Shown here one piece after another: positions 15,445-35,729 of a stretch of DNA of 35,906 nucleotides. Source of the DNA: Phycisphaerae bacterium. GTDB taxonomy: Bacteria; Planctomycetota; Phycisphaerae; UBA1845. Position 1 is the stretch's first letter, and the number at the start of each line of letters is the position of its first letter. The notes under the pieces are model-generated. The model did no database searches, was not told where the DNA came from, and saw nothing but the letters and a program-made list of their open reading frames with translations. The position numbers and the translations under genes were made by a program. Where the stretch lies: assembly GCA_029260165.1 (NCBI GenBank), contig JAJDDT010000104.1, forward strand, positions 1 to 35,906. The letters run 5' to 3'.

Positions 15445-15655
15445 AAAAAAACAGTCCAACGGGAAACCGCCCATGCCGGTGGGAGGAAATTGCCAGAACC
15501 CCAGATAAAAAGTGGGTGGCCGCTCGGGTGCGCTGACTTCCCGTCTAGCGGGCTTGCCATTGCAACTCCAAATTCACGGCCTCCGCCAGGATTCCGCATT
15601 GGTTCAGCACAATCAAGCTCCCTGCCAAACACAGCAGTCGCTTCGCTGGACTAAC
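15411..15655 (-). ncRNA. Candidate structured noncoding RNA of about 240 nt
   Basis: On the reverse strand, TATAGT (15666-15661) is a good -10 box, followed by 240 bases without a convincing ORF and ending in a strong intrinsic terminator with eight U. The ends of the transcript pair: AGTCCAGCG (15652-15644) with CGTTGGACT (15461-15453), 9 base pairs including one G-U. Smaller stems lie inside, such as CCCG-CTAGA-CGGG and GGCCG...CGGCC. A closed rod with its own promoter and terminator is compatible with a 6S-like or other regulatory RNA, but I recognise no diagnostic 6S, SRP, RNase P or tmRNA motif. Assignment to a family is open. Confidence 0.5.
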
Positions 15656-34061: not shown

Positions 34062-34601
34062 TTATCGGACTAACCAGCCATCCATATCCAGCAACCGTCG
34101 CACCGCGTCAGCCGCCTGCCAGTCAGAATCCGAATGGACGACCCGAATCGGCACCAAACGGCGATCAGGCCCGCAGGCGTCGTGAATCTCCTCGATCAGA
34201 GCGCGAAGCCCGACCCATTGCGACAACGGAATGTCCGTCGAATCCAGCCGCGTCGGAAGATCCACGCCAATCTCCGAACTGACCCGCGATGCCACAGGTC
34301 CGAAAAGATGCAGCATCCCACTCTCCAGGACAACGAATTGGGAATCATCATCCCGGACAGCCGTCAATGTCGTGCCCGGCGTCGAAGAAACCGGTTTCAG
34401 TGTGACCTGAATCCCCGACAACCGCTCAAGCCCCGTCAAGCCGTCCAGAAACGTCCGAACGTGATCTCGGGCGGCGGATTCGTCTCTAAGAAAGTCAATC
34501 CCCGGCGTGACAGGCTCGAACCATGTCAGCAAAAGTGCCGCCCCCGTCATGGACAACGCCAAACCCGCCAACGTCCTGAACATCCGTGTTCGTGGCTGCA
34601 T
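34062..34601 (-). CDS. Small exported or membrane-anchored protein
   Basis: 179 residues. One N-terminal hydrophobic segment (TLAGLALSMTGAALLLTWF) after basic residues is a signal or anchor. The remainder is soluble in character, with DESAARDHVRTFLDGL, LSGIQVTLKPVSS and LSQWVGLRALIEEIHDACG. There is no recognised domain and no lipobox. AGGA lies upstream of the ATG. It may share a transcript with the coiled-coil gene 280 bases downstream on the same strand, but a REP-like palindrome separates them. Confidence 0.7.
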   Translation of the reverse strand: MQPRTRMFRTLAGLALSMTGAALLLTWFEPVTPGIDFLRDESAARDHVRTFLDGLTGLERLSGIQVTLKPVSSTPGTTLTAVRDDDSQFVVLESGMLHLFGPVASRVSSEIGVDLPTRLDSTDIPLSQWVGLRALIEEIHDACGPDRRLVPIRVVHSDSDWQAADAVRRLLDMDGWLVR

Positions 34602-34732
34602 CGCGATCCTGCCTGCGATCCCATCCTCGTTCGCTTCTCAACGTCGACGTTGTAATCACAAAACACGAGGAGCACAAACCCCGCGACGATGACAATTTAT
34701 CATCCCGGCCGGGCGACCCTGTGAGTTTTTCG

Positions 34733-34762
34733 TTGACAACAGCCCGGCCAATGCATAACAAT
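34733..34762 (+). promoter_or_regulatory. Promoter of the cysH leader
   Basis: A perfect TTGACA (34733-34738) is followed after 17-18 bases by TAACAAT (34756-34762), a partial -10 box. The expected transcript start is close to 34768, leaving a leader of about 250 bases before cysH that contains the cysteine-rich peptide and terminator. Confidence 0.7.
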
Positions 34763-34846
34763 ACCGTCATGCAGGTTGGCCAACGAAATCATGTTCGCCT
34801 TGGAAATACGCTTCGCGCCGGTTACGCGCCGGCCGGGGGGGTCTGC

Positions 34847-34885
34847 ATGTGTTGTTGTATCACCCAACATGGAGAGACTGCCTAG
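34847..34885 (+). CDS. Cysteine-rich leader peptide of cysH attenuator
   Basis: A 12-residue frame, MCCCITQHGETA, with three consecutive TGT cysteine codons directly after the start and a G-rich ribosome site (GGGGGGG) 5-6 bases upstream. It lies between a promoter and an intrinsic terminator, all ahead of a cysteine-biosynthesis gene. This is the layout of amino-acid attenuators, where ribosome stalling at the sensing codons sets the RNA fold. An in-frame ATG at 34769, almost at the predicted transcript start, would give a 38-residue leaderless version containing CMCCC. The stop TAG at 34883-34885 overlaps the first base of GCGGG, the possible antiterminator arm. Confidence 0.72.
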   Translation: MCCCITQHGETA

Positions 34886-34936
34886 CGGGAATTCGGCAAC
34901 AGCCAACAGTCAATAACGAAGACACGACAACTTCCA

Positions 34937-34967
34937 CCCGCAGGCAGCAATGCTCGCGGGTTTTTTT
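34937..34967 (+). terminator. Intrinsic terminator/attenuator before cysH
   Basis: CCCGC (34937-34941) and GCGGG (34956-34960) form the outer stem; an inner AGC-AAT-GCT stem closes the loop, and seven T (34961-34967) follow. It lies 49 bases before the cysH start with no gene ending before it, so it must act on cysH expression. CCCGC can alternatively pair with GCGGG at 34885-34889, at the leader-peptide stop codon, which would prevent the terminator from forming. Confidence 0.82.
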
Positions 34968-35015
34968 GTCCCCAAACGAACCGAAAGAAGCTCGAAAAAC
35001 GTCGGAGAACCATTC

Positions 35016-35729
35016 GTGGAAACGCAAACCACCGTCACCGGAACTCAGGTTTCAGTCACCGAGGACAGTCCCGCCGAGGATATCATCGCATGGTCCCTCG
35101 AACGATTCGATCCTCCGCGCATGGTCCTCACCACCTCGTTCGGTATGGAAGGCTGCGCGATGATCGACATGTACGCCAGGCACGATATCCCCATCGATAT
35201 CGTCTACCTCGACACCATGTTCTTCTTCAAGGAAACCTACGAACTTCGCGACCGCATGATCGAACGCTATCCGCACCTCAACTTCATCAACAAAGGCACG
35301 ACACTCACCCCCGAAGCGCAGGGCGAACAGCATGGCCTCGAACTCTGGAAGACCAACCCCGACCTTTGTTGCAAGCTTCGCAAGGTCATTCCAATGGGCC
35401 CCGCACTGACGGGTTACGACGTCTGGATCACCGGTCTCCGTCGAAGCCAATCCGGCACCCGAGCCAACCTGCGCACCGTCGATTGGGACTGGCAATACCA
35501 GATCCTCAAGGTCAGCCCCATCGCTTCCCTCGACCGCCCGAAAATCTGGGAGTATGTTCAACAGAACAACGTGCCCTACAACGCACTGCACGAACAGGGA
35601 TACCCGACCGTTGGCTGCACTCATTGCACCAGCGCGGTCCCGGGATCGAAAATCGGTGAATACTCGCGGGCCGGACGTTGGAACGGTGCCACCAAAACCG
35701 AGTGTGGCCTGCACGGTGACGGCATCTAA
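35016..35729 (+). CDS. cysH: Assimilatory adenylyl-sulfate (APS) reductase
   Basis: 237 residues from GTG 35016, with GGAG 8 bases upstream; the ATG at 34950 lies inside the terminator hairpin and is not used. The enzyme reduces activated sulfate to sulfite for cysteine synthesis. DLCCKLRKV and GCTHCTSAV supply the CC...CxxC cysteines of a [4Fe-4S] cluster, which marks the APS-using type rather than PAPS reductase without a cluster. The catalytic Cys is in KTECGLHGDG near the C-terminus. The N-terminal fold shows TTSFGMEGCAMIDM and YLDTMFFFKETYELRD. No cysN, cysD or sulfite reductase gene is in the window. Expression is probably controlled by the cysteine attenuator upstream. Confidence 0.93.
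   Translation: METQTTVTGTQVSVTEDSPAEDIIAWSLERFDPPRMVLTTSFGMEGCAMIDMYARHDIPIDIVYLDTMFFFKETYELRDRMIERYPHLNFINKGTTLTPEAQGEQHGLELWKTNPDLCCKLRKVIPMGPALTGYDVWITGLRRSQSGTRANLRTVDWDWQYQILKVSPIASLDRPKIWEYVQQNNVPYNALHEQGYPTVGCTHCTSAVPGSKIGEYSRAGRWNGATKTECGLHGDGI

Follow-up and report, generated by a model that had tools for sequence, protein, structure and literature searches.

The DNA upstream of cysH in this Phycisphaerae bacterium very probably encodes a ribosome-mediated transcription attenuator. It would sense the supply of charged Cys-tRNA and regulate cysH, probably together with the sulfate-reduction genes that follow. This reading is built on sequence comparison and RNA modelling. The window, which is the whole stretch of DNA that was analysed (35,906 nucleotides), contains three features of attenuators of the trp/his type: a Cys-rich leader open reading frame, an intrinsic terminator and a predicted antiterminator that excludes the terminator. 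All features of the locus are on the forward strand.

The gene behind the leader, cysH (35016–35729), encodes 237 amino acids. It starts with GTG and is preceded by GGAG at 35004–35007. The protein contains a PAPS-reductase domain (PF01507, E 6.3e-44) and scores 220 bits against the NCBIfam model TIGR00434, which has a cut-off of 165.1. The product had been labelled an APS reductase in an earlier note on this DNA. It passes the general cysH models and falls within the APS/PAPS reductase family, but it scores under the cut-off of the APS-specific NCBIfam model and may reduce either APS or PAPS. The genome contains one cysH-family match. The contig in the window ends 177 bases past cysH. In a genome of the same genus (G001; L032), the genes behind cysH are a sulfite reductase gene and a glutamyl-tRNA reductase-like gene. 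This gene order, read in the same-genus genome, therefore suggests that cysH belongs to an assimilatory sulfate-reduction operon.

The predicted promoter is sigma-70-like and consists of a -35 box, TTGACA (34733–34738), which is found by direct reading and by a promoter scan, and a -10 box, AACAAT (34757–34762), with an 18-nucleotide spacer. It is the sole match in a scan of both strands of 34400–35100 and agrees at 10 of 12 positions; 0.3 matches are expected from shuffled sequences. Most relatives have a TTGAC-type box with a spacer of 16–18 nucleotides, and most have TANNNT as the -10 box. The earlier note had reported the TTGACA, a terminator with seven T and the GTG of cysH at 35016; all are present, and its positions are correct throughout. 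The hexamer CTGTGA occurs a few bases 5' of the -35 box (34719–34724) and is found in the same place in L003, L010, L014, L015, L025 and L067, while L011 has TTGTGA there. CTGTGA is possibly an operator and possibly an accident. Elsewhere in the window, a 6S RNA is located on the reverse strand (15460–15643; Rfam RF00013, 48.6 bits compared with a gathering score of 46.4); no other Rfam family reaches its gathering score in the window.

The leader is shared with close relatives. A search for the cysH protein in 100 genomes, this one included, gives matches in 60, of which 50 have an E value below 1e-80. The upstream region is readable in 49 of these 50 (that of G047, L070, reads N). For genome G010, a locus on another contig (L067) was used instead of L072, which is without upstream sequence. 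In 48 of the 49 readable regions, that of the window included, a Cys-rich frame precedes a hairpin with a T run. The exception, L071 (G072), contains a Cys-rich frame but has a weak hairpin and neither a convincing promoter nor a convincing terminator; it is doubtful and was excluded from the 48 loci. In L055 (G043), the cysH homologue carries one in-frame TAG.

The leaders are far richer in Cys codons than chance predicts. Four or more Cys codons within a stretch of nine are found in 45 of the 48 regions, whereas dinucleotide shuffles reach this number in 28 of 960 cases; for five or more, the counts are 34 of 48 and 2 of 960. A T run directly preceded by a hairpin of -15 kcal/mol or lower is present in 46 of 48 regions, compared with 17 of 960 shuffles. 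A long leader with alternative folds and a sulfur gene behind it would also be expected of a metabolite or tRNA riboswitch, such as a T-box or a SAM riboswitch, in which the Cys frame would be accidental. The excess of Cys codons makes this reading extremely unlikely, as does the Rfam search of 34600–35100, which gives no family with an E value of 1 or less.

Under the attenuator reading, the control codons in the window are TGC at 34844–34846 and TGT-TGT-TGT at 34850–34858. These flank an ATG at 34847, where the earlier note had placed the start of a Met-Cys-Cys-Cys leader. The ATG-TGT-TGT-TGT frame (34847–34858) is present and ends at the stop codon TAG (34883–34885). A 12-codon leader from this ATG, MCCCITQHGETA, would serve the same attenuator, with GGGGGGG, which precedes the ATG, as a G-rich ribosome-binding site. 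Other loci with a Met ahead of the Cys run are L003 (G001), L008, L052 and L059–L061, and L023 has it as MCCW. However, Met directly precedes the longest Cys run in 8 of the 48 loci, the window included, and other codons occupy this position in the rest.

The position of the start relative to the promoter is more consistent. In the window, the Cys frame stays open upstream as far as an ATG at 34769, which lies 6 nucleotides past the -10 hexamer. Promoters were counted if they were of the TTGAC type with a spacer of 16–18 nucleotides, and the promoter and frame counts cover the 47 of 48 loci where one was found. Of the 48 loci, 42 (42 of the 47 with a promoter) have an in-frame ATG or GTG 4–12 nucleotides past the -10 box, and the other two frames, used as a control, have a start in this interval in 3 of 94 cases. 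The six remaining loci comprise three with starts 51–58 nucleotides downstream, one with a start at 17 nucleotides, one without a promoter and one in which no start was found by the scan. No stop codon interrupts the Cys frame between the promoter and the Cys run in 44 of 47 loci; the other two frames are open over this stretch in 38 of 94 cases.

Because the promoter-spaced start and the open frame are conserved and Met before the Cys run is rare, the real leader is most likely a leaderless or near-leaderless frame of 38 codons, MQVGQRNHVRLGNTLRAGYAPAGGVCMCCCITQHGETA (34769–34885). The predicted transcription start, at about 34769, is assigned to the A of this ATG on the basis of the 6-nucleotide spacing from the -10 box. 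These same counts leave the 12-codon start as an improbable variant. Elsewhere in this genome, a promoter followed after 4 to 10 nucleotides by ATG occurs 39 times, compared with 8 times for a backwards control; 30 of the 39 were read. This pattern hints that near-leaderless starts may be used at other genes. Two loci of this genome, L160 (contig C36) and L177 (contig C84), show the promoter-to-ATG pattern and encode near-identical 11-residue peptides (MLEFLETLKWA and MIEFLETMKWA).

The intrinsic terminator occupies 34936–34967. Its stem-loop (34936–34961) has a predicted energy of -16.0 kcal/mol and runs into seven T at 34961–34967. A simple terminator scan of 34400–35100 does not include it in its list. 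Assignment of this terminator to an upstream gene was ruled out in the window, because the neighbouring open reading frame (34062–34601, no Pfam match) is on the opposite strand. The earlier note had paired CCCGC (34937–34941) with GCGGG (34885–34889), which overlaps the last base of the TAG. This complementarity exists, but the predicted antiterminator is about twice as long. Its 5' strand, CUGCCUaGCGGG (34878–34889), spans the leader stop codon, and its 3' strand, CCCGCAGGCAG (34937–34947), overlaps the 5' arm of the terminator. Together they form 11 base pairs with one bulged A (CUGCCU-a-GCGGG on the 5' side). The overall fold of 34760–34975 is ordinary compared with expectation (z = -0.62); the support for the switch is comparative.

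Covariation was assessed in an alignment (A1) of 38 of the 48 loci, from which 7 near-duplicates and 3 hard-to-align loci had been dropped beforehand. In the terminator helix, 97.9% of cells are paired, compared with at most 60.3% when the helix is slid by 1–3 columns, and both sides change in 6 of 9 pairs. In the antiterminator, 77.4% of cells are paired, compared with at most 50.6% for the slid versions, over which it has the advantage of having been drawn from the same sequences. The antiterminator contains 60 double-change cells, compared with 30.3 in shuffled alignments (0 of 500 shuffles as high), and both-side changes in 12 of 16 pairs, compared with 8.8 (9 of 500 as high); these statistics ignore kinship. 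Three of the 16 pairs are poor and fail in 18, 19 and 21 of the 38 sequences.

An alignment-free test gives a congruent result. For 40 of the 48 loci (8 near-duplicates dropped), the end of each leader was paired with its own terminator hairpin and with those of the other loci, and pairing with any portion of the hairpin was permitted. The cognate duplexes have a mean of -30.4 kcal/mol, compared with -25.6 (sd 0.54) for swapped partners, and 0 of 20,000 permutations are as good, with kinship ignored. The own terminator is sometimes outdone, with a mean rank of 8.4 among 39. As judged from these comparisons, the terminator and the antiterminator are both conserved with covariation. The earlier note had proposed aligning the cysH leaders of related genomes and would have given up its reading had relatives kept cysH without Cys codons or covarying stems. 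Among the relatives, the Cys codons, the terminator and the alternative pairing are all kept, with compensatory changes.

The same results bear on translational control of the mycobacterial type, in which a polycysteine leader would couple ribosome movement to the translation of cysH and the hairpin and T run would be incidental. Cysteine-responsive translation attenuation by leaderless polycysteine upstream frames in mycobacteria (Canestrari 2020) is described in PMC9031893 and PMC13236596, and one locus (L138, G156) has a polycysteine leader near a distant cysH and no terminator by eye. A hairpin with a T run nevertheless lies between the leader and cysH in every one of the 48 loci where the leader is clear, far above shuffles, the terminator covaries and the antiterminator covaries with it. 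In these 48 loci, the leader stop is 117–423 nucleotides ahead of the start of cysH homology. Translational control is accordingly a slim prospect, less probable than the 12-codon start.

In the proposed transcription attenuator, transcription would begin at or beside the AUG of the 38-codon leader, as the promoter spacing suggests, and ribosomes would load at the bare 5' end of the leader mRNA. When Cys-tRNA is ample, the ribosome would clear the four Cys codons, arrive at the UAG and cover 34878–34889. The segment 34936–34961 would then fold as the terminator, and RNA polymerase would halt at the U run, as the structure implies. When Cys-tRNA is scarce, the ribosome would stall at Cys codons 26 and 28–30 and leave 34878–34889 free. 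The free strand would capture 34937–34947 before the 3' arm of the terminator has been transcribed, so that no terminator forms and cysH is transcribed. Attenuation of this general kind was the proposal of the earlier note. Its Cys-codon leader, terminator and alternative pairing are supported, but the leader most likely starts further upstream than it had supposed and the predicted antiterminator is longer.

Modelling of the window RNA as it grows, up to the terminator loop, gives the antiterminator when the ribosome is on the Cys codons and none when it is on the stop codon. Across the 48 loci, modelled capture of the terminator arm is weaker by a mean of 5.6 kcal/mol with the ribosome on the stop than with the ribosome stalled at the last Cys codon. 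The difference exceeds 2 kcal/mol in this direction in 38 loci and in the reverse direction in 4. By a cruder measure, the probability that the arm is paired upstream, the separation is modest (mean 0.77 for the stall, 0.58 for the stop).

For the full-length window RNA, all three ribosome states tried have the terminator as their minimum-energy fold. Since the complete RNA favours the terminator whatever the ribosome state, the proposed switch must be kinetic. The growing RNA also forms the antiterminator when no ribosome is present, and a protector hairpin is therefore not evident in the window's own copy. Among the 48 loci, 27 show capture that is more than 2 kcal/mol weaker with no ribosome than with a stalled one, and 2 show the reverse.

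The element generally accompanies close cysH orthologues. This genome contains a single strong covariance-model match (9.7e-13), located before its only cysH. Its next matches (0.0037 and 0.023) were read and are unlike Cys leaders. They are two of the sixteen sites that were read (L112–L127); the other 14 come from a search of the class. None of the sixteen resembles a Cys leader, and L119, L122 and L123 are Cys-rich only out of the apparent protein-coding frame, which was taken as chance. The class search gives matches in 192 of 397 genomes with an E value of 0.01 or less, but this count was discarded as overstating the element, because the sites read from it are unlike Cys leaders. Among 392 genomes of the phylum, the Cys model under strict filters at E up to 1e-6 identifies this genome and G435 alone; the known positive relatives are evidently outside this sample, and the search bounds the range of the element only loosely. 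No plasmid homologues of 34733–35729 were found.

Among distant cysH loci (35–57% identity), a Cys-rich leader is present in 4 of 20: G351 (family f8), G281 and G343 (both family f10) and G156 (family f20). By eye, G351 and G281 have a similar terminator, G343 has a T run but no clear stem, and G156 lacks both. The cysH matches of f5 (35–37% identity) have a Cys leader in 0 of 10, two of these having under 210 nucleotides of upstream sequence. The leader is thus mostly missing from distant cysH (present in 4 of 30), which is why the element is linked to the close orthologues. In G156 (L138), the polycysteine leader ends in HLCACCCCCGTCC close before cysH; this is perhaps a translational variant.

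The match in G435 is a Leu-rich leader before leuA. The leuA gene was searched in 50 genomes, 14 upstream regions were read and eight loci (L181–L187 and L180 of G435) were scanned for a promoter and a leader. A leaderless leader of 12–60 codons passes the scan in six of the eight, namely L182, L183, L185, L186 and L187 (all f5) and L180; an example is MSVSAYNSTLRVSGAAELGLALGLLLVGLRVGSSAG. L181 (f3) and L184 (f6) do not pass. By eye, all eight show an inverted repeat with a T run behind it. In the six other leuA regions, including that of the window's genome (L189), no Leu-rich leader is found by the scan. From their promoters, leaders and T-run hairpins, the six loci that pass, all in other Planctomycetota, probably hold leucine attenuators built in the same way.

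The cysteine and leucine versions share a plan of TTGACN, a spacer of 17 or 18 nucleotides, a TANNNT-like box, about 8 nucleotides, ATG, control codons, antiterminator and terminator, with the leucine antiterminator presumed. We are inclined to think that leaderless leader-peptide attenuation is a general means of amino-acid sensing in the Phycisphaerae and perhaps in other Planctomycetota, with Cys leaders before cysH in families f1, f2, f8 and f10 and Leu leaders before leuA in family f5 of the same order and in a more remote planctomycete lineage (G435).

Enterobacterial attenuators of the trp/his type combine control codons with a mutually exclusive antiterminator and terminator, and their leader stop adjoins the antiterminator. 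The cysH element shares all of these features. It differs in its use of cysteine, its predicted leaderless start and the lack of a clear protector hairpin in the window copy. The leader RNA of Sinorhizobium meliloti trpL starts with the ATG of the leader peptide and acts by terminator-based transcription attenuation (PMC7298713). It resembles the cysH element, as predicted here, in being a leaderless transcription attenuator with a terminator, and is distinguished by its amino acid (tryptophan), its target (trpE(G)) and its host (an alphaproteobacterium).

Polycysteine leaders without conserved terminator hairpins are reported from mycobacteria in PMC1262725. The planctomycete leader resembles the mycobacterial upstream frames in being a Cys-run frame, leaderless by prediction here, before cysteine or sulfur genes. 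Unlike them, it has a covarying intrinsic terminator and antiterminator, and because the terminator is conserved it is not classed with them. In the Rhodobacterales, uORFC-8-2 before cysS is a short upstream frame with Cys codons, stems and a U-run terminator, for which ribosome-mediated attenuation is proposed (PMC8632094; the word 'leaderless' is absent from its main text). In common with the cysH element, it has a terminator and a short frame containing Cys codons. Going by its description, it is set apart by its target, the cysteinyl-tRNA synthetase gene cysS rather than cysH, its two tandem Cys codons and its phylum. The earlier note knew of no polycysteine leader with an intrinsic terminator in Planctomycetota. 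That pairing had already been predicted in the Rhodobacterales, and the claim stands only in part.

PMC4833913 counts leader genes in Planctomycetes by distance only. Among top-ranked results in the open-access literature, no report was found of cysH attenuation by cysteine codons or of amino-acid attenuators in Planctomycetota. Polycysteine leaders, a Cys attenuator with a terminator and a leaderless attenuator are each known; what looks new is that they occur together, before this gene and in this phylum. If the attenuator reading is correct, the element would be, within that literature, the first attenuator of this type found for Planctomycetota and for cysH.

The unusual planctomycete cell plan has made the coupling of transcription and translation a question in these bacteria. 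An attenuator of this type would imply both transcription-translation coupling and the translation of leaderless mRNAs in Planctomycetota. The leucine versions suggest how a single architecture might be adapted to sense a different amino acid.
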